This document shows positions 7,992 to 18,078 of a DNA stretch of 32,837 bases, piece after piece. Both the position numbers and the translations under genes were made by a program. This DNA is from an uncultured Chthoniobacterales bacterium (GTDB taxonomy: Bacteria > Verrucomicrobiota > Verrucomicrobiia > Chthoniobacterales > CALDSX01): contig CALDSX010000024.1 of the NCBI GenBank assembly GCA_937924445.1, positions 1-32,837 of the forward strand, given 5' to 3'. The notes under the pieces were generated by a model. It was not told where the DNA came from. It did not search any database and saw only the letters and a list, made by a program, of their open reading frames with translations. The stretch's first letter is position 1. Every line of letters starts with the position of its first letter.

Positions 7992-9719
7992 TTGCGCTCT
8001 CTCATGACCGCCATGGAACACAAGACTGGCTCTTGCAAGATGTCTTCGGTGCGCAAGTTCCGGTTGTGGTTGTGGGCGGGCGCTGCCTTGGGCTTGGTCT
8101 TGGTCGTAACGGCAGCTTTTGCCTGTCTGACCTATGGATGGGATAAGCCTCTCCTCGGCCCGCACGCATTCCGCCAGACGCAGACGGCCATTTCTTCATA
8201 TTACATGGTGCGTCATCCGGAAATGTTTCTACGCTACATAACGCCTGTTCTTGGCAAGCCATGGGAAATTCCGATGGAAGTTCCGTATTATCAATGGCTA
8301 GTGGCACGGTGGCACACACTTACGGGTATGCCTTTGGATGCAGCGGGGCGGTTTGTCTCCGTTTTTTTCCTCCTGGCATGTCTGTGGCCAATAACGTTGC
8401 TGATGCGCGCGTTAGGCACCCCTTGGGCCGGTGTTTGGGTCTCGTGGTGTTTAATCCTCTCCAGCCCGCTCTATTTATTCTGGAGCAATGCGTTTCTGAT
8501 CGAGAGCACAGGGTTATTTTTGGTCCTTGGAATGACCGCTTTTCTCACAAGAGCCCTCCGGCATCAATCCCCCTGGGATGCTGCCGTCGCGTTTTTGTTT
8601 GGGCTATTGGCGATTACCTGTAAGGCCACAACCTGGGCCATTGCGGCTGGGGCTTCACTCCTTCTCATCTTCTATCTGATTGGGCGGGAGAATCTATTGT
8701 CGGCAGTGAGAAATCCGCTTGCATCGCTGCGCGGGCCCAAGCTGCGTCTGTGGATGGTTGCCCTCCTTTGTGCCGTCTCGCTTGCTCTATGTTTTATTGT
8801 CGGGAAAATGTGGTTAGACTTTGCCGATAAGATAAAAAGCAAAAACATATTTGCGCGGGAACTTATCATCGCAAACTCCGAAAACCAAAAACGCTGGAAT
8901 TACGGCACGCTGGAACAGAAACTTGACCCGGCTACCTGGCAAGGAATTGGTCGGCACATTGCCAGCCAGCTTACTCCTGAAGCGCCTCTTGTTGGGAGCA
9001 TTTTCCTCCCTGCCGTTCTGATGATTTCCCTGGTTTTTGCACGTGGCAGGCGGCTAGTGCCGCTTATTTTCCTGGCCGTTTTTGCAGCTGGCCCCTTGGT
9101 TTTTACAAACCTTTATTTCGAGCACAGTTATTACTGGATGGCGAACGGAGTCTGGCTTTTGCTCGCTGCGGGAGATGTGGCAGGGCGTCTTTTGTCGTTC
9201 CCGAAAGTCCCGCTTGGGGGAGATAAAAAAAACGTTGCTTCGGTCTGGCTTGCGAGATCGGCCGTTACCCTCACAGTCGTTTTAACGCTAATTCTTAGTG
9301 GGTTCGCGCAGTGGCGACGCATTTATTTTCCGATCCTGCAAAATCTGCCTTCGCAAGCGAGCCTAGCGAAGGCGTTTATCGAACCAGCACAGAAAACTGT
9401 GCTACCCGGTAGAACGCTGTTGGTGCTTGGTCACGATTGGAACCCGGCCATTCTATATTATGCTGAGCGCAAAGGAATCGCTTTTCCAACAGCTCCGTGG
9501 ATTCCTTTTCCGTGTCGTCAGCTCGATGAGGCACTTGGCCGCTTTGAGGAGGCAGAAGAACTGGGTGGAGTTCTTGTTGGCGGCACTTTTCTCAATACCG
9601 AATTCAGGCAGGCCGTCGAGGCCTTCCTCGCGCAAATCGGGGCTGCGCCACCACCCGTACAGACACCCTTTGGCCTGCTTTTCCGTGTTCAAAGCGGGCG
9701 TGACAAAACCCGCTTTTGA
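7992..9719 (+). CDS. Glycosyltransferase family 39/PMT-like polytopic membrane protein (start uncertain: 7992, 8004, 8013 or 8040)
   Basis: GPHAFRQTQTAISSYYM luminal-loop motif, multiple TM segments, C-terminal soluble domain. Confidence 0.8.
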   Translation: MRSLMTAMEHKTGSCKMSSVRKFRLWLWAGAALGLVLVVTAAFACLTYGWDKPLLGPHAFRQTQTAISSYYMVRHPEMFLRYITPVLGKPWEIPMEVPYYQWLVARWHTLTGMPLDAAGRFVSVFFLLACLWPITLLMRALGTPWAGVWVSWCLILSSPLYLFWSNAFLIESTGLFLVLGMTAFLTRALRHQSPWDAAVAFLFGLLAITCKATTWAIAAGASLLLIFYLIGRENLLSAVRNPLASLRGPKLRLWMVALLCAVSLALCFIVGKMWLDFADKIKSKNIFARELIIANSENQKRWNYGTLEQKLDPATWQGIGRHIASQLTPEAPLVGSIFLPAVLMISLVFARGRRLVPLIFLAVFAAGPLVFTNLYFEHSYYWMANGVWLLLAAGDVAGRLLSFPKVPLGGDKKNVASVWLARSAVTLTVVLTLILSGFAQWRRIYFPILQNLPSQASLAKAFIEPAQKTVLPGRTLLVLGHDWNPAILYYAERKGIAFPTAPWIPFPCRQLDEALGRFEEAEELGGVLVGGTFLNTEFRQAVEAFLAQIGAAPPPVQTPFGLLFRVQSGRDKTRF

Positions 9720-9959: not shown

Positions 9960-10988
9960 ATGATCATCTCTAGAACGCCCTTCAGAATCTCGTTTTTCGG
10001 AGGAGGCTCCGATTATCCTGTCTGGTATTTGCGCTACGGTGGAGCGGTGCTCTCGACCGCGATAGATAAATTCTGCTATCTGACCTGTCGTTATTTGCCG
10101 CCATTTTTCGAACATAAATTTCGTATTCTTTACTCGAAGATCGAAATGACCCAAGCGGCGACGGAAATCCAGCACCCTGCTGTGCGCGGAGCACTTCAGA
10201 TGATGGGTATAGAGCGTGGGCTTGAGATTCATCATGACGGCGATTTGCCGGCGCGCAGCGGCATGGGATCAAGTTCCTCGTTCGCGGTTGGCCTGCTGCA
10301 TGTGCTTCATGCGCTTGAGGGGCGAATGGCGAGTCGCGAGGTTTTAGCGCGCGAGGCGATTCATCTTGAACAGAATGTGCTGAAGGAAACAGTAGGCTCA
10401 CAGGATCAAATTGCCGCCGCTTTTGGTGGCTTCAATGCGATTAGATTCCGCCCTGACGGCCTGTTTGCGGTTGAGCCAGTTTACCTTCCTCCCGAACGTC
10501 TGGTTCAGTTTAAATCGCATCTTCTACTATTCTTCACCGGACTTTCCCGTCTTTCGAGTGAGATTGCGGAAAAGATCGTCGCATCTATTCCGGCTAAGGA
10601 GAACTCAATTCGACGATTTATTGAGATGGTTGACGAGGCGTTGGGTATACTTGCGAATGGCAATCTAGAGGATTTCGGTCGCCTCCTTGACGAGGCATGG
10701 CAGCGGAAGCGGGCGCTTAGCGAGGTCGTTACAAATTCGACGATTGACGAGGCCTATGAAGCAGCCAAAACAGCTGGGGCCTTAGGCGGTAAACTTCTGG
10801 GGGCTGGCGGGGGCGGTTTTCTTTTGATCTTTGCCCCTCCTGAGCGGCACGGCTCCGTCAGAGCAGCTCTTTCATCGCTGTTGCATGTGCCGTTTGATTT
10901 TGAGCCCGCCGGAAGTCAGATCATTTTCTATGATCCCGAGCAAGACTACGAACAAGCGGAGTTTGTTTTTGGGAGAAACCAGAGATGA
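9960..10988 (+). CDS. GHMP family kinase, D-glycero-D-manno-heptose 7-phosphate kinase-like
   Basis: MIISRTPFRISFFGGGSDYPVWY; DLPARSGMGSSSSFAVGLLHVLHAL ATP-binding loop; LGGKLLGAGGGGFLLIF. Confidence 0.9.
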   Translation: MIISRTPFRISFFGGGSDYPVWYLRYGGAVLSTAIDKFCYLTCRYLPPFFEHKFRILYSKIEMTQAATEIQHPAVRGALQMMGIERGLEIHHDGDLPARSGMGSSSSFAVGLLHVLHALEGRMASREVLAREAIHLEQNVLKETVGSQDQIAAAFGGFNAIRFRPDGLFAVEPVYLPPERLVQFKSHLLLFFTGLSRLSSEIAEKIVASIPAKENSIRRFIEMVDEALGILANGNLEDFGRLLDEAWQRKRALSEVVTNSTIDEAYEAAKTAGALGGKLLGAGGGGFLLIFAPPERHGSVRAALSSLLHVPFDFEPAGSQIIFYDPEQDYEQAEFVFGRNQR

Positions 10989-11081
10989 TCGTTCGTTATA
11001 CGGGAGTATCTATTTGTAATTTGTAAAATGACATTTTAGATGCCACGCCGCATAAAAGAAATGAACTAAGCCCTCAGTCAG

Positions 11082-12263
11082 ATGAATTCTTTTCCCCAAC
11101 TCGACTGGCCTCTCATGCGCAATAACATCACACGCTCGGATTTGGATGCGGTGATCACGTTTTTGCAACAGGAAGATCCGATCCTTACGCAATCTAAAAA
11201 TGTCGCTGCTTTCGAGCAGGAGTGGTCTGCGTGGTTAGGGGTTCGGCACAGTCTTTTTGTAAACTCCGGGTCGTCTGCTAACGATATTACAATGCTGGCC
11301 TTGCGAGAGTTACGCGGTTCTGGTGAGGTCATTGTGCCTCCGTTAACGTGGGTGTCTGATATTGCCAGTGTCCTGCACGCGGGCTTCAAACCGGTTTTTG
11401 CAGACATCAATCCTCGCACAATCGGAATGGATAGCGCTGAGGTCATCCGCAAAATGTCCGCAAACACCCGTGCGGTGTTCCTCACCCATATCTTGGGTTA
11501 CAACGCCCTTGATGACCAGTTGCTCGAGGCCTGTGCCGAACGCGGCATCCCGCTCATCGAGGATGTTTGCGAGTCGCACGGAGCAAAGTTTAAAGATCGA
11601 AAGTGCGGCACCTTCGGCTGGGCATCGAATTTCTCCTTCTACTATGCCCATCATATGAGCACGATTGAGGGTGGGATGATTTGCAGTAATGACGACGAAT
11701 TTATAGAGGTCTGTCGTGTCTTGCGCTCACACGGCATGGTGCGGGAGTCGCGTAATGAGGCCTTTAAACGTGGCTATGCGGATGCCTATCCAGATTTAAC
11801 TCCCACATTCATTTTTGCATACCCGGCACATAACATGCGCTCCACCGAAATCAATGCGGTGATTGGGCGTTCGCAGCTCAGTCGTCTCGATGCGAACAAC
11901 ATCATTCGCACTCGGAATTTGATAAGATTCCTAAATGGTTTGGACCCCAAAAAATTCCGCACTGATTTTGCAGTTGACGGTAGCAGCAACTATGCGTTCA
12001 CTCTGGTGCTTCATGAAGCGAACGATGCCTTGCGAGATAGGTGTATTGAGATGATGACTGCCGCAGGTGTGGAATTCAGACGTGGCACATCAGGTGGGGG
12101 GAACCAACTCCGGCAACCTTATCTTCGCCGAATATTCGGCGAAGAATTCAAAAACTACCCGCAGGTTGAGCACATCCATTTTTACGGATTTTACATCGGG
12201 AACTATCCTGACCTCGAACCCGAGAAAATTGACAGATTGTGCGTGATGCTCAACGCGCTATAA
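11082..12263 (+). CDS. DegT/DnrJ/EryC1/StrS fold PLP-dependent enzyme, ColD-like sugar 3-dehydratase candidate
   Basis: FVNSGSSANDITMLAL; NFSFYYAHHMSTIEGGMICSNDDEFIEVCRVLRSHGMVRE with His-His at the PLP-lysine position. Confidence 0.85.
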   Translation: MNSFPQLDWPLMRNNITRSDLDAVITFLQQEDPILTQSKNVAAFEQEWSAWLGVRHSLFVNSGSSANDITMLALRELRGSGEVIVPPLTWVSDIASVLHAGFKPVFADINPRTIGMDSAEVIRKMSANTRAVFLTHILGYNALDDQLLEACAERGIPLIEDVCESHGAKFKDRKCGTFGWASNFSFYYAHHMSTIEGGMICSNDDEFIEVCRVLRSHGMVRESRNEAFKRGYADAYPDLTPTFIFAYPAHNMRSTEINAVIGRSQLSRLDANNIIRTRNLIRFLNGLDPKKFRTDFAVDGSSNYAFTLVLHEANDALRDRCIEMMTAAGVEFRRGTSGGGNQLRQPYLRRIFGEEFKNYPQVEHIHFYGFYIGNYPDLEPEKIDRLCVMLNAL

Positions 12264-12679
12264 TCTCACTCTAACTTTTCGCTCATGAGCGACACACTCT
12301 CAGCCGATTGGGTCGAGGTTTATATAATTTTTTTTTCCGAGATGAGGCATCTTGCCAAGGAGAGGCCCTTTCCTCTGCGGCGTGGGGCTGGGCGCGATGA
12401 AGGAAACTTATGTGATGTGATTTCAGATAACTTCCCTCCAGAGCCTCTGGTGCAAGGGGAATGCGATATTAATCCTGCCCAGTTCTCGAAAAGAACCGGC
12501 GTATATTTTTAAGCGGAGAGTCTAATCGTGAATCTTTTAACCGACTCTCTCATTTCAGGAAAAACTCTCTCTGTTTTTGGCGAGCGAAATAAATGGATGG
12601 AACCCTGCAAAGCTCTTTGCGCCGATGAGAAAAAACCAGCGTTACATAGCGATGGGTCGTTTAAAGAAATCACGTTCTT

Positions 12680-13291
12680 ATGAATACTCTAACAGTCTCC
12701 CAACTTATTGCCTTCGAGGAAGAGATCGCACGTGAATTCAATGCGGGTAAGATTCGTGCCCCGATCCACCTTTATTTTGGCAATGAAGAGGAAATTATCA
12801 GCGTTTTTCGCAGAATTCGGCCCCAGGACTGGGTTCTTTGTTCGTGGCGCAGCCACTACCAATGCCTTCTTAAAGGAGTGCCGCCGGACCTGCTGAAGAG
12901 TGAAATTATGGCAGGGCGCTCTATCTCCCTTTGCTTTCCAGAATACCGGATTTTTAGCTCTGCGATCGTCGGAGGAGTTCTACCGATTGCCACCGGCATT
13001 GCCCTAGGCATTTGTCGCACAGGTGAAGATGCCCGGGTGTATTGTTTTATGGGTGAAATGACCGCTGAAACGGGGATTGCTCATGAATGCGTTAAATATT
13101 GCAGAAATCAGCAGCTTCCAATTACCTGGATTATTGAAGACAACGGCAAGTCAGTCTGCACAGACACCAAGAAAGCATGGGGCATCGAGGCGCATTGGTG
13201 GGAAAAGGAGTCATCTGCGGAGGATGTGATTCACTATAAATACCAATCCAAATATCCGCATGCCGGAGCGGGTATTCGTGTGCAATTTTAG
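12680..13291 (+). CDS. TPP-dependent dehydrogenase E1 alpha-like protein (short, 203 aa)
   Basis: HLYFGNEEEIISVFRRIRPQDWVLCSWRSHYQCLLKGV, IVGGVLPIATGIALG, FMGEMTAETGIAHECVKYCRNQQLPITWIIEDNG (degenerate GDG...NN TPP motif). Confidence 0.85.
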   Translation: MNTLTVSQLIAFEEEIAREFNAGKIRAPIHLYFGNEEEIISVFRRIRPQDWVLCSWRSHYQCLLKGVPPDLLKSEIMAGRSISLCFPEYRIFSSAIVGGVLPIATGIALGICRTGEDARVYCFMGEMTAETGIAHECVKYCRNQQLPITWIIEDNGKSVCTDTKKAWGIEAHWWEKESSAEDVIHYKYQSKYPHAGAGIRVQF

Positions 13292-13303
13292 ACTTTAGCC
13301 TCT

Positions 13304-13840
13304 ATGAATTATTTTGAGCAATTAAAACGCAGTATGGAATGGTTGGCTGAAGATCCGCGCACAGTTTTTATAGGTCAAGCGGTTGAGGTTCCTGGAACAG
13401 CCATGAGCAATACTGTCAAAGATATCCCTCTTGAGCGCCGAATTGAGCTCCCTGTTGCCGAAGAAATGCAAATGGGCATGACAATAGGACTCGCTCTGCA
13501 AGGTCAAATTCCCGTCTCAATCTATCCGCGCTGGAACTTTCTTCTCCTTGCGGTAAACCAACTTGTAAACCACCTCGACAAGCTTTCAGTAATGTCCAAC
13601 GGGCGGATCCATGCAAAAGCCATTATTCGCACGGGAATTGGCTCAGTTCGCCCGCTTCATCCCCAGCACCAACACATCGGAGATTTCACCGAAGCGTTCC
13701 GTCTGATGTGTTCAACGGTGGAAGTCATCCGTGTGGATGAACCGGATCAAATCTTTCCGGCCTACCAGAAAGCCCTGCTCAGGGACGACGGCCGCAGCAC
13801 CCTAATTGTCGAATGGGGTGATTATTACAACGAAAAGTAA
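13304..13840 (+). CDS. TPP-dependent dehydrogenase E1 beta/transketolase-pyrimidine-domain protein, lacks C-terminal domain
   Basis: RIELPVAEEMQMGMTIGLALQGQIPVSIYPRWNFLLLAVNQLVNHLDKL; 178 aa only; directly follows the E1-alpha-like gene. Confidence 0.82.
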   Translation: MNYFEQLKRSMEWLAEDPRTVFIGQAVEVPGTAMSNTVKDIPLERRIELPVAEEMQMGMTIGLALQGQIPVSIYPRWNFLLLAVNQLVNHLDKLSVMSNGRIHAKAIIRTGIGSVRPLHPQHQHIGDFTEAFRLMCSTVEVIRVDEPDQIFPAYQKALLRDDGRSTLIVEWGDYYNEK

Positions 13841-13856
13841 AAAACTCCCTCTGACC

Positions 13857-15377
13857 ATGCGCCCGCTCGATGTTCTTTTCATTAATGCCGACTCGTCCGC
13901 TGCCGCTTATCAAGAGTTGGCAAAGACTTTTGCCGCAATTGAGCCTCCCACATGGAGTCTACTCCTGGCGCAAAGCTGTCGAGCGAAAGGTTACGGCGTC
14001 GCTATTCTGGATGCGACGGCAGAGCGACTCACCCACGAGCAAACGGTGGCCCGTGCAGGAGAAATCAAGCCTCGTCTGGTTTGCTTCGTTATTTACGGTC
14101 AGAACCCAAACTCTGGCACGACGAACATGATCGGAAACACTGAATGCGCCAGGTTTTTAAAAGAGAGTCATCCAGAAATTCCGATCTGTTTCGTAGGCTC
14201 ACATACGAGCGCTCTCCCCATGGAAGTACTCTCCCTACCCTACGTTGACATTGTTCTGCTCAATGAAGGGGTTTACGCTCTTCACGATTTGCTGGCCAGC
14301 GACCTTGCTGATGATTTACCAAAAATCAAAGGGATCGGCCACAAACACGGAGGACGGCCGGTTCTTAATGAACCTCAGCGCGTTGTCCCGCAAGAGCGCA
14401 TGGATGCCGACATGCCAGGCTACGCATGGGATTTGTTGCCTTACAAGGAAAGGCCGCTCGACCTTTACAGGTCTCACTTCTGGCATGCGGAATTTTCCCA
14501 TGAAAAACGCACGCCTTTTGCCGCTGTTTACACCTCCCTAGGTTGCAAGTTCAAATGCGACTTCTGCATGATCAACATCGTCAACCGCGTGGACAATGCA
14601 GAAGGCGTCGCCTCCGCCCACTCGCCTAACATGCGCTTCTGGTCACCAGAATTGATGCTCTCAGAGTTTGAAAAACTCGCCGAAATGGGTGTTAAGACCA
14701 TCCGCATCTCTGACGAGATGTTTTTCCTCAACAAAAATTACTACGGTCCGTTGGTTGAAAGTCTGGCCGAACGAGATCTTGGACTCCGGATGTGGGCCTA
14801 CTCGCGCGTGGATACCGTCCGCCCACAATTTCTTGAGACCTTCCTCAAGGCCGGCATCGGGTGGCTTGCGCTTGGCATCGAGGCTGGCAGCCAGATGGTA
14901 AGGCAGGAAGTCTCTAAAGGCAGCTTCAAGGATGTTAACATCCGACAAATCGTTGCTTCAACCCGCGAATTGGGGATGAATGTGATTTCAAACTACATCT
15001 TTGGCTTTCCTGACGACAACTTTGAGACCATGCAGCAGACTCTCGACCTTGCGCTTGAGCTTTGCACAGAGATGGCTAACATGTATCCTTGTCAAGCGTT
15101 GCCAGGAAGCCCGCTCTATTACGAAGCCAAGGCCAAGGGTTGGGCATTGCCCTCTTCCTACGAAGGGTATGCATTTCTCTCGTATGAAAGCCAACCGCTG
15201 CCCACCAAGCATCTTTCCGCTGCCGATGTGCTGCGGTTTCGGGACGAAGCCTGGAAGACATATTTTACGCACCAACCTTTCCTCGAACTCGTGGAAAAGA
15301 AATTCGGATCGCTGGAGCGTCAGAATGTTGAAAGCATGGCCGCTATACGCCTGAAACGGAAATTGTTGGGGGATTAG
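13857..15377 (+). CDS. B12-binding-domain radical SAM protein (BchE-like architecture)
   Basis: N-terminal Rossmann-like cobalamin-binding region; SLGCKFKCDFCMINIVNR (CxxxCxxC); start taken at MRPLDVLFINAD (ORF extends to 13806). Confidence 0.92.
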   Translation: MRPLDVLFINADSSAAAYQELAKTFAAIEPPTWSLLLAQSCRAKGYGVAILDATAERLTHEQTVARAGEIKPRLVCFVIYGQNPNSGTTNMIGNTECARFLKESHPEIPICFVGSHTSALPMEVLSLPYVDIVLLNEGVYALHDLLASDLADDLPKIKGIGHKHGGRPVLNEPQRVVPQERMDADMPGYAWDLLPYKERPLDLYRSHFWHAEFSHEKRTPFAAVYTSLGCKFKCDFCMINIVNRVDNAEGVASAHSPNMRFWSPELMLSEFEKLAEMGVKTIRISDEMFFLNKNYYGPLVESLAERDLGLRMWAYSRVDTVRPQFLETFLKAGIGWLALGIEAGSQMVRQEVSKGSFKDVNIRQIVASTRELGMNVISNYIFGFPDDNFETMQQTLDLALELCTEMANMYPCQALPGSPLYYEAKAKGWALPSSYEGYAFLSYESQPLPTKHLSAADVLRFRDEAWKTYFTHQPFLELVEKKFGSLERQNVESMAAIRLKRKLLGD

Positions 15378-16087
15378 GTTTTCGGCGGCCTCCAGCCGAG
15401 TTCCAGCCAGAACTGGGTGTAGTACGCCGCTCCCCAACGGAGAACCTGAACTTTGGCGTCACCTGCGATGCGAGCAGGTTCATCCGAAGGAATCTCGGAC
15501 ACTTTGCACTTGGCGCGGGCCGCCCGAACAGAGAGCAGCGGCTCGATCCCCATGCGTGTGCAAAAGAGCCACTCAGGCAGCGCATAAGCTTTTTCCTGAT
15601 CCAGACCGAGTTGGTTGAACAGAGACGTTCGGTAAATACGGAAAATCGTCATGGCATCGGTGTAACGGCCACCATGCAAGAGATTAACAGTGCGAGTGAA
15701 AAGCCAGTTGCCAAAGCCTGTGACAAGACTGTCATCCTCGCTCTTGGCCGGAGGCAAATATCGGGAGGCAATAACCATATCATAACCGTCCTGGAATTTG
15801 GCGATGAGCCTCGACAGATCCTCCGGAGGGCAGTTTCCATCGGGGCTGAACGTGATCACCGCATCGCCTCTGAGCATCGGCCACGCCTCGATGTAGGCAA
15901 ACCGAATCCCTTTCTGCCGCTGGATATGCACATCATAGCCAAGTGACTTAGCATAATCTGCCGTGCCATCTTTTGAGTTTCCATCGGAAACCATAACTTG
16001 ACAAAAAAGAGAATGATCCACCTTCGGCATAATGGTCTCCATACTTTTCCTTTCATTAAGCGTGGGGATAAAGAGAGAAATTTTCAT
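15374..16087 (-). CDS. Family 2 glycosyltransferase (dolichyl/polyprenyl-phosphate sugar synthase-like)
   Basis: MKISLFIPTLNERKSMETIMPKVDHSLFCQVMVSDGNSKDGTADYAKS; ITFSPDGNCPPEDLSRLIAKFQDGYDMVIASRY. Confidence 0.9.
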   Translation of the reverse strand: MKISLFIPTLNERKSMETIMPKVDHSLFCQVMVSDGNSKDGTADYAKSLGYDVHIQRQKGIRFAYIEAWPMLRGDAVITFSPDGNCPPEDLSRLIAKFQDGYDMVIASRYLPPAKSEDDSLVTGFGNWLFTRTVNLLHGGRYTDAMTIFRIYRTSLFNQLGLDQEKAYALPEWLFCTRMGIEPLLSVRAARAKCKVSEIPSDEPARIAGDAKVQVLRWGAAYYTQFWLELGWRPPKT

Positions 16088-16095
16088 AAGACACC

Positions 16096-18078
16096 TTACT
16101 GCGATGAAGTTAATTTGATAAGCCGCAGATTCGCAGCCCGTCCCACAACACGCTCGCTGAGCGCAAGCGCATCAACAGAGTCCATAAAGTCGATCATGTA
16201 CCGCCCCCAAACTTCTTTAAAGAACCATTCGGGACGCTGATGCTCTTTCCAATGTCGGCGGGTGTAAAGAAGCATCGCATTCTCAAAATCCACAACAAGC
16301 AGGTAATCCACCCCAACGGAGCGGAGATAGTTTTTAAGAGCATCAGGGCCTTTCTCCAGGGGCCACGGGCCAATAGAACACGCACCGGCCACATCAGCAG
16401 TAAAAATTTTGTTTCTGTTAAAGTTAAGAGCGTAGGGGGTGTCGATAGCAGCAAAAATAACTGCTCCGGGTTCCGTTTTCTCCTGAAGTTCTGTCACACC
16501 TTTGGTGATGATCGGGGTGACCAGTCGTTGCGTTGAGGAAACAGCCTGTTGCGGCAGGCTCTCAGCCATTAATGTCAGCTCATTGCCAGCGTTGGGTAGA
16601 TTTACAGCCACAAGAAGCGCAAGCGCAAGTGTGGCCGCATATTTTTTGAGTGGACTATCTGGAGAATTAAATCGACTGCCGAGATATGAGGTTAAGATCC
16701 AGATGGCAATAGGAAAAAGCATCGGAAACGTGTATCGATAGCTTTCGAAAATGACAGTAACGCCAAACTTATAAGAAGTAAACCACGCCACACAAACTGC
16801 AGATAAAACCGCTGCCAGAGCAAGATCTTTGCGCTCGACAAACCATGCAAAAACATAACAGAACAATAACGCCAGCACCTCGGGTCTGAAGAGAAATCCC
16901 GTAGCGTGAGCGACATCCTGCAACGGTCCGTTTTTGCTGCCGAGAACGCCAAATGCAGGGTTCAACGTGCCTCCGAACGGTGGATACATCGGGGTGGCGT
17001 TTGACTGCCATAGGACAAACATCCATGGCGCAAGAGCGACGAAGGAAAGGACCCCTATAAAACCTAGTGTCTTTACGGCAAGAAACCCTCCTGGCGCTGC
17101 GGTTCTTGTTATCTTTAAAACGTGCAAGAGTGTGGGAAGTGTGAGTGAGATTGTGGTGATGGCGACTGCGCAGAGAAGAAAAGTGGGGCGCAGACTTCCC
17201 GCCGCCGCGATCAACAGCGCCGACGGCAGAAGAACTCTCATTTGAATCGGGGGCATTTTCCCAATCCTGTCAAAAGTCATTAACAAAGCCAAAAGAACAG
17301 AAGCCCCTCCCAGCGAGCTACTTGTGTTAATGCGCGGGACACTTATAAAAAAAACACTTCCAACCAAAAGCAACCGGAAGAGCGCGGCTGTGGCTGGCAT
17401 TCCGCGTGTGAGGCGAAGCAACATCCCAAAGATCATCAGCATACCGAACCCCCGGTCCGGGACATGGCCAGATCGCTCTGCTCCAACGACCATGACAAGA
17501 GCCTGTAAAAGCGATTGCCCGCCAAATGTTCCAAGCCGTCGCACATTAAAGGGCTCAATAAGGCTGCCAGTTTGGAGAATCCGTTCAGGAAAGAAAAGAT
17601 AGCATACCACATCGTCATTCGGATCAATCTGCGCGGGCCAGGCAATGGAGGAGGAAAAAGCCAGAGCGGCAAGCAGGCTGAGAATGATCAAAACAGTGAT
17701 GTTCGCGCCGTCAAAATGGCGCCACGCTTTTTTGACATTGGATTTCTTTGTCGCTGCGCGGCTTAAACTCACATCGCTTTGCCGCGTCGTTTTAGAGTGG
17801 GTGGAGTTTTTGGCGGAAAGCGCAAGCCCGCCGGCCAGGGCTGCACCAGCCAACACCACCATCGTGAGAACGGGCGCTTTGGCCGCCGAGAAAGCCATCA
17901 ATAGCCCACCAAAAGCGAGCGTTACAGCCATACCCCATGCCATCGTGAGCCCCCAGCCGAGATCCTCAAACTCTTTCCGATTGAGTAATCGACGCAGGGC
18001 TTCACCCCAACCCCAGAAACTGGTGCCGATGACGATACTCCAAAGAAGGACGGGGAGATAGCCGGGGTGACTGGACAT
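16096..18078 (-). CDS. Polytopic membrane protein, GT-C-like glycosyltransferase candidate
   Basis: 660 aa, about a dozen hydrophobic segments, C-terminal soluble domain (VDYLLVVDFENAMLLYTRRHWKEHQRPEWFFKEVWGRYMIDFMD); follows no other gene on the minus strand and abuts the GT2. Confidence 0.7.
   Translation of the reverse strand: MSSHPGYLPVLLWSIVIGTSFWGWGEALRRLLNRKEFEDLGWGLTMAWGMAVTLAFGGLLMAFSAAKAPVLTMVVLAGAALAGGLALSAKNSTHSKTTRQSDVSLSRAATKKSNVKKAWRHFDGANITVLIILSLLAALAFSSSIAWPAQIDPNDDVVCYLFFPERILQTGSLIEPFNVRRLGTFGGQSLLQALVMVVGAERSGHVPDRGFGMLMIFGMLLRLTRGMPATAALFRLLLVGSVFFISVPRINTSSSLGGASVLLALLMTFDRIGKMPPIQMRVLLPSALLIAAAGSLRPTFLLCAVAITTISLTLPTLLHVLKITRTAAPGGFLAVKTLGFIGVLSFVALAPWMFVLWQSNATPMYPPFGGTLNPAFGVLGSKNGPLQDVAHATGFLFRPEVLALLFCYVFAWFVERKDLALAAVLSAVCVAWFTSYKFGVTVIFESYRYTFPMLFPIAIWILTSYLGSRFNSPDSPLKKYAATLALALLVAVNLPNAGNELTLMAESLPQQAVSSTQRLVTPIITKGVTELQEKTEPGAVIFAAIDTPYALNFNRNKIFTADVAGACSIGPWPLEKGPDALKNYLRSVGVDYLLVVDFENAMLLYTRRHWKEHQRPEWFFKEVWGRYMIDFMDSVDALALSERVVGRAANLRLIKLTSSQ

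Follow-up and report, generated by a model that had tools for sequence, protein, structure and literature searches.

What do five neighboring genes on a contig of an uncultured Chthoniobacterales bacterium (Verrucomicrobiota) make together? The window, by which we mean the whole stretch of DNA analyzed (32,837 nucleotides; positions 1 to 32,837 of contig CALDSX010000024.1, forward strand, assembly GCA_937924445.1), carries a cassette whose five open reading frames (ORFs) all lie on the + strand and span 9960-15377. They encode a sugar kinase, a DegT-fold protein, two short homologs of the E1 subunits of thiamine pyrophosphate (TPP)-dependent pyruvate dehydrogenase (PDH), here called the mini pair, and a radical S-adenosylmethionine (SAM) protein. 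An initial annotation, made from the letters, had listed these same-strand genes and a His-His in the DegT protein, and the ORFs and Pfam matches confirm it:

9960-10988, + strand: GHMP-family sugar kinase, HddA/FKP-like, outside both equivalog families (Pfam GHMP_kinases_N/C)
11082-12263, + strand: DegT-fold protein, candidate ColD-like dehydratase (Pfam DegT_DnrJ_EryC1; ColD is the best PDB match)
12680-13291, + strand: mini E1-alpha, 203 aa, TPP diphosphate-binding domain only (Pfam E1_dh)
13304-13840, + strand: mini E1-beta, 178 aa, pyrimidine-binding domain only (Pfam Transket_pyr)
13857-15377, + strand: B12-binding-domain radical SAM protein (Pfam B12-binding and Radical_SAM; the ORF opens at 13806, and the start supported by alignment is the ATG at 13857)

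We consider it fairly probable, though far from assured, that this cassette builds a branched-chain, deoxygenated surface sugar by way of the DegT protein, the mini pair and the radical SAM protein. We argue from four observations: which genes are present, which cofactor-site residues are kept, how the genes are inherited together, and how TPP modules replace one another at the same step.

A GTDB profile scan was run with mini E1-alpha, and the best 80 of 472 relatives (39-71% identity) were taken as loci. They come from Nitrospira, Verrucomicrobia, cyanobacteria, beta-, gamma- and alphaproteobacteria, Pelagibacteraceae, SAR86, SAR116, Bacteroidetes, candidate phyla radiation (CPR) bacteria, and nano- and pacearchaea. 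The genomes compared are mostly metagenome-assembled genomes (MAGs), and some record titles are doubtful; two MAGs titled Bordetella parapertussis and Streptomyces griseus (L079, L115) carry environmental-type cassettes, and their species names look wrong. Mini E1-beta lies beside mini E1-alpha in 80/80 loci. Among the loci of at least 12 kb (n = 56), the GHMP kinase is found in 45, the DegT protein in 48, the radical SAM protein in 45, and all of them in 40. A Spartobacteria locus (L073) holds all five genes on one strand (identity to the window: GHMP 59%, alpha 70%, beta 70%, DegT 66%, radical SAM 74%), and a cyanobacterium (L064) provides a further example of the full cassette. The cassettes nearest to that of the window suggest a Verrucomicrobiota (Chthoniobacterales-like) source. 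Pairwise divergences of the five proteins are correlated (r = 0.63-0.86 over 41 cassettes), and gene order differs between lineages; in most Verrucomicrobia cassettes DegT is placed after E1-beta, so that the order in the window looks rearranged. Control loci around canonical E1-alpha (L005-L033) show no cassette partners, but at only 3.5 kb they are too short to be informative.

The strongest sign of this association is a phylogenetic profile. In an even sample of 118 Nitrospiraceae genomes, mini E1-alpha is present in 11. Orthologs of the DegT protein (identity ≥83%), the radical SAM protein (≥72%) and the GHMP kinase (≥84%) occur in exactly those 11. The chance of one such exact match is ~1 in 10^15 under independence; the genomes are related, and the figure is illustrative only. 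The initial annotation had proposed looking for conserved co-occurrence, and the neighborhood is conserved both in the 80-locus set and in this profile: the five genes make up the core of a real, widespread unit. No mini E1-alpha ortholog was found in the 288 other genomes of the window's phylum, where the only matches are canonical full-length E1-alpha at ~30% identity; because these are all that the 289 genomes hold besides the window's own copy, the distribution within the phylum is patchy. A plasmid search likewise returned only E1-alpha matches at ~30% identity.

What the mini pair does within this unit is best approached through a second, paralogous cassette (type II), which occurs in ~34 other Nitrospiraceae genomes within 6-9 kb (identity to the window: GHMP ~57%, radical SAM ~42%, DegT ~35%); at the thresholds used, no Nitrospiraceae genome holds both types. 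We read 24 type II loci from the ~34 genomes. DegT, the NAD-dependent epimerase/dehydratase SDR5 (a short-chain dehydrogenase/reductase, SDR), GHMP and radical SAM are present in 24/24, and the nucleotidyltransferase HddC in 23/24; the DegT motif reads GHQMSTIEGG, the first His being retained. A TPP enzyme lies inside the cassette in all 24 loci and is of three descents: a single-chain protein with TPP_enzyme N, M and C domains in 14, whose best PDB match, 8rph, is the YerE-like ligase JanthE (PMC12188165); a split transketolase of 295 + 338 aa in 6; and a full-length E1-alpha/E1-beta pair (Pfam) in 4. The mini pair is thus a fourth TPP solution, and is found alongside type II radical SAM and DegT proteins as well (L124, L132, L100). 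All YerE-type cassettes also hold a class I aminotransferase (found in 16/24 type II loci overall), which could, we conjecture, supply a 2-oxo acid donor. The split transketolases (Nitrospiraceae loci L158-L162 and L155), set among DegT, SDR, GHMP, HddC and radical SAM genes, are candidate surface-glycan transketolases acting on a keto sugar, and many type II loci carry, after the YerE-like gene, a second, distant radical SAM protein (~540 aa, ~23% identity; e.g., L154 12408-14033).

According to a 2025 review, exactly three superfamilies of TPP enzymes are known to take ketones as acceptors, namely YerE-like decarboxylases in surface glycans, pairs of alpha-keto acid dehydrogenase 2 (alphaKADH2) type in antibiotics, and transketolases, the last proposed for miharamycin and amipurimycin (PMC12247030); the E1 pairs AviB1/B2 (avilamycin) and Pau11/12 (paulomycin) have been proposed to install C2 branches (PMC4425429, PMC4753412). 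The TPP enzymes of the type II cassettes belong to these same three superfamilies, which are also reported to branch sugars, so acyl addition to a keto-deoxy sugar made by the DegT enzyme is the most likely role of the mini pair. That TPP modules have been replaced repeatedly while the rest of the cassette stays constant would be difficult to account for by any step other than a TPP-dependent carboligation. Acyl transfer to a ColD-type keto-deoxy sugar, as the initial annotation suggested, thereby gains strong comparative support.

The mini subunits are short but keep their catalytic-site residues. Mini E1-alpha has 203 aa vs. 365 aa in human PDH E1-alpha, and mini E1-beta, at 178 aa, is without the transketolase C-terminal domain (no Transketolase_C by Pfam). 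Family profiles nonetheless align to human PDH E1-alpha (E = 8e-17) and E1-beta (E = 8e-15), and the AlphaFold2 model of mini E1-alpha (pLDDT 91) has human PDH E1-alpha as its best PDB match (TM 0.82 on query). G125-[D/E]126 and E153-D154-N155 of mini E1-alpha align with GDG and ENN of PDH, and this metal/diphosphate signature (G-D/E ... E-D-N) is conserved in the family; Glu53 of mini E1-beta, invariant among homologs, aligns with the P-I-S-E glutamate of human PDH E1-beta, the catalytic Glu. The retention of TPP-site residues in both subunits thus predicts that the pair can bind TPP, which the initial annotation had named as a point to be checked. With its homologous alpha and beta subunits and TPP-site residues the pair resembles the sugar-branching alphaKADH2 pairs, but it does not have their full-length subunits or the transketolase C-terminal domain on beta; nor is it a YerE-like single chain with TPP_enzyme N, M and C domains, its matches being E1_dh and Transket_pyr. 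A role as the PDH E1 of central metabolism was rejected, the pair being truncated and a separate full-length E1-alpha lying on contig C103 of the same genome.

Mini pairs are also carried by phages. In Synechococcus phage S-SM2 (L056 17983-19191) and Prochlorococcus phage P-TIM68 (L057 17986-19194) the two subunits are fused into one protein of 402 aa, annotated as "transketolase central region-containing" (PHROG phrog_34187), with genes for a zinc-dependent alcohol dehydrogenase, a kinase, a nucleotidyltransferase, GmhA and an epimerase as neighbors. IMG/VR contigs of up to 105 kb (L034-L054), whose viral status is a prediction, carry mini E1 pairs at 48-65% identity, often adjoining a radical SAM gene, and show PHROG matches to glycosyltransferases.

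If the mini pair is to act on a keto-deoxy sugar, the DegT protein is the expected source. Its best solved relative is the GDP-4-keto-6-deoxymannose 3-dehydratase ColD (151 bits, E = 2.8e-43, over residues 23-385), which has the same fold and likewise has His in place of Lys; the two differ in sequence (~30% identity), and the window protein has its own C-terminal motif, GGGNQLRQPYL. His190-His191 occupies the site of the pyridoxal phosphate-binding lysine of aminotransferases, and the stretch SFYYAHHMSTIEGG puts His190 on ColD His188, a position that by our reading of two alignments is Asn in 3b8x. His190 is invariant in 29/29 cassette DegT homologs, some at only 26-33% identity, and the subfamily motif GGGNQ/GGGSQ is found in 51/52 close relatives. 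The initial annotation had left room for a catalytic Lys elsewhere in the protein; none takes over from the His-His, and an ordinary aminotransferase was therefore rejected. The protein falls outside the RfbH equivalog (NF011936; 171.7 bits vs. a cut-off of 423). Judged from these residues, it is a candidate ColD-type dehydratase dependent on pyridoxamine phosphate (PMP).

The two remaining core proteins also fall outside the equivalog families nearest to them. The GHMP kinase scores 117.3 bits against the NCBIfam model of HddA (heptose-7-phosphate kinase), the cut-off being 600. The radical SAM protein has its cluster motif, CKFKCDFC, at 230-237, with CxxxCxxC invariant in 23 homologs, and together with the B12-binding domain this motif predicts a cobalamin-dependent radical SAM enzyme. 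The nearest fold to its AlphaFold2 model (pLDDT 92) is AprD4, followed by MgmA, TsrM, TokK, CysS and OxsB. AprD4, a radical SAM diol dehydratase acting on a sugar-like substrate, is the nearest solved fold (TM 0.69/0.76) at 18% identity in the fold alignment, and HpnJ, the nearest NCBIfam model, also acts on a sugar-like substrate; the window protein lies outside both equivalogs (AprD4: 61.2 vs. 500 bits; HpnJ: 110.2 vs. 577.6 bits). Methylation and deoxygenation or rearrangement are both possible for its step. A defense library matched only weakly, to the radical SAM protein, and a defense system was rejected.

Clustering of neighbors adds further partners: SDR5 in 49, an HddC-like nucleotidyltransferase in 45 and a GDP-fucose-synthase-like protein in 27 of the 80 loci, and, at a looser threshold, GmhA or GmhB homologs near 32. 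A polysaccharide ABC transporter ATPase, identified from sequence, lies near the Nitrospira cassettes (neighbor cluster 10). The window's genome has SDR5 on contig C5 (13979-14905, 61% identity) and, on contig C86 (L152 8347-9540, - strand), an HddC-like sugar nucleotidyltransferase (40% identity) that carries a fused NUDIX domain, and thus holds its partners scattered. At L107 16279-17460 (-) and other Pelagibacteraceae loci an HddC-like nucleotidyltransferase fused to a GmhB-like phosphatase lies beside the cassette, which suggests a heptose-type route. The HddC-, GmhA- and GmhB-like partners together suggest a GDP-linked, possibly heptose, substrate, and not necessarily a hexose such as those that the initial annotation named for testing.

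From these parts we infer every reaction, substrate and the order of the pathway. The GHMP kinase and HddC-like guanylyltransferase would activate the sugar to a GDP-sugar, and the SDR on contig C5 or an enzyme of 4,6-dehydratase type would set the keto group or the stereochemistry. The DegT protein, as a PMP-dependent ColD-type dehydratase, would then take off the hydroxyl beside the keto group. Mini E1-alpha and E1-beta may bind TPP across their interface and either decarboxylate a 2-oxo acid or take a ketol donor, and the resulting acyl carbanion would add to the ketone to give a tertiary-alcohol branch, as YerE does; the donor may depend on the type of TPP module, with YerE and E1 using pyruvate-like 2-oxo acids and transketolase using ketols. 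The radical SAM protein might finally alter the branched sugar by C-methylation, AprD4-like deoxygenation or rearrangement.

Several points weigh against this pathway. SDR5 falls outside any 4,6-dehydratase equivalog family, leaving the 4-keto-forming step without an assigned gene; the GDG motif of the mini pair reads GEM or GDM, and the pair is without the C-terminal domains found in E1 pairs known to branch sugars; its direct link to an acceptor ketone is drawn by analogy; and no such sugar is known here from these organisms. The GmhA/GmhB-like genes also allow an upstream, sugar-phosphate role, in which the pair would be a small transketolase-like enzyme making an unusual long-chain ketose phosphate that GmhA-, GHMP-, GmhB- and HddC-like enzymes convert to a GDP-sugar, with DegT and radical SAM acting later. 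The split transketolases of the 6 type II loci and the GmhA, kinase and nucleotidyltransferase genes around the fused pair of cyanophages fit this alternative. We nevertheless regard it as unlikely: 2-oxo acid decarboxylating ligases (YerE/JanthE-like or full E1) fill the slot more often (18/24), every full cassette has a dehydratase candidate that would give a keto-deoxy sugar, the known YerE-type acceptor, and the housekeeping transketolase already makes sedoheptulose phosphate.

The DegT protein might instead make a colitose-type deoxy sugar, the TPP pair and radical SAM protein belonging to other pathways that only happen to be encoded at one glycan locus. Unrelated sugar genes do gather in surface-glycan loci, and the order of the genes varies; however, the exact co-occurrence of four genes in 11/118 genomes, the correlated divergence of the five proteins and the return of the same partners with three other TPP types make such a chance assembly distinctly improbable. 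Least credible of all is that the mini pair is an inactive, degenerate relic of PDH. Both subunits have lost domains found in PDH E1 and the D of GDG is E in the window copy, but Nitrospira, archaea and phages alike retain the size and the cofactor-site residues, which relics would not keep, and the diphosphate- (PP) and pyrimidine-binding (PYR) domains suffice for TPP binding in the superfamily. The branched, deoxygenated surface sugar remains our preferred product. More tentatively, and with the balance of judgment against it, the cassette may define a so far unknown class of surface sugar that is GDP-linked, deoxygenated and possibly heptose-derived, acyl-branched by an exchangeable TPP module, and remodeled by radical SAM chemistry (C-methylation, further deoxygenation, or carbocycle formation), with the mini pair as an exceptionally small sugar-branching TPP enzyme found also in phages.

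The surroundings of the cassette are as follows:

7992-9719, + strand: large membrane protein, possible GT-C (PMT-like) glycosyltransferase, flanking (ORF without Pfam match; assigned by appearance only)
15374-16087, - strand: GT2 glycosyltransferase, AglJ/polyprenyl-phosphate hexosyltransferase-like (Pfam Glycos_transf_2; NCBIfam AglJ, 80 bits)
16096-18078, - strand: large membrane protein, possible GT-C glycosyltransferase, flanking (ORF without Pfam match; assigned by appearance only)

The GT2 named as a flank in the initial annotation is thus upheld by Pfam, and the PMT-like assignment is not, both membrane proteins being without a match. Both GT2 and the membrane protein at 16096-18078 are encoded on the strand opposite to the cassette. 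Transfer of the product by these flanking glycosyltransferases, also proposed, is not borne out: they lie outside the conserved set, a GT2 homolog occurs in 3/80 loci, and GT2 is probably not part of the core. The cassette genes are not tightly packed, with gaps of 93 bp between GHMP and DegT and 416 bp between DegT and E1-alpha, the latter (12264-12679) with no convincing ORF. An Rfam scan of the window at gathering scores found no RNA family, and hence neither a B12 nor a TPP riboswitch.

Branched sugars of the yersiniose type have so far been associated with two kinds of enzyme, YerE-like ones for the surface glycans of Gram-negative bacteria and E1-like pairs for antibiotics. The cassette would join both, one genetic frame with four TPP modules being shared by nitrifiers, Verrucomicrobia, cyanobacteria, SAR11 and proteobacteria. 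It predicts that abundant, uncultured bacteria perform new sugar chemistry, and gives an orphan B12-type radical SAM family a sugar-pathway setting. The mini pair would be a minimal two-domain carboligase of possible use in tertiary-alcohol synthesis, and related acceptors with different donors across cassettes offer ready comparative tests.

No description of this gene combination was found in the literature searched (open-access papers only), and besides ColD, AprD4 and HpnJ three known systems come close. In the yersiniose/YerE-type pathways of Gram-negative lipopolysaccharide (YerE, ErwE, JanthE), a 3-deoxygenating ColD/E1-type DegT-fold enzyme supplies a keto-deoxy nucleoside diphosphate sugar, and a TPP enzyme attaches an acyl unit at its ketone (PMC12247030, PMC4753412), as proposed for the cassette; the window differs in having a two-subunit mini E1 pair rather than a single-chain decarboxylase fold, and in its additional GHMP kinase, HddC-like transferase and radical SAM protein. 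AviB1/AviB2, Pau11/Pau12 and KbDH-alpha/beta of actinobacterial antibiotics are E1 homologs for which addition of a pyruvate-derived C2 unit to a keto sugar or a ketone analog has been proposed or shown, but Pau11/12 have 325/345 aa and belong to an antibiotic cluster (PMC4425429), whereas the 203/178-aa pair occurs in surface-glycan settings in many phyla. The GDP-D-glycero-D-manno-heptose pathway (GmhA, HddA, GmhB, HddC) shares a related GHMP kinase and guanylyltransferase, and GmhA/GmhB are often near the cassette; these relatives score well under the HddA and HddC cut-offs, and the cassette adds the DegT, TPP and radical SAM steps. The parts come from known superfamilies and the plan resembles yersiniose biosynthesis; what is apparently new, as far as we found, is that a minimal TPP pair sits in a sugar-branching setting, that a radical SAM protein constantly accompanies it, and that TPP modules are exchanged.

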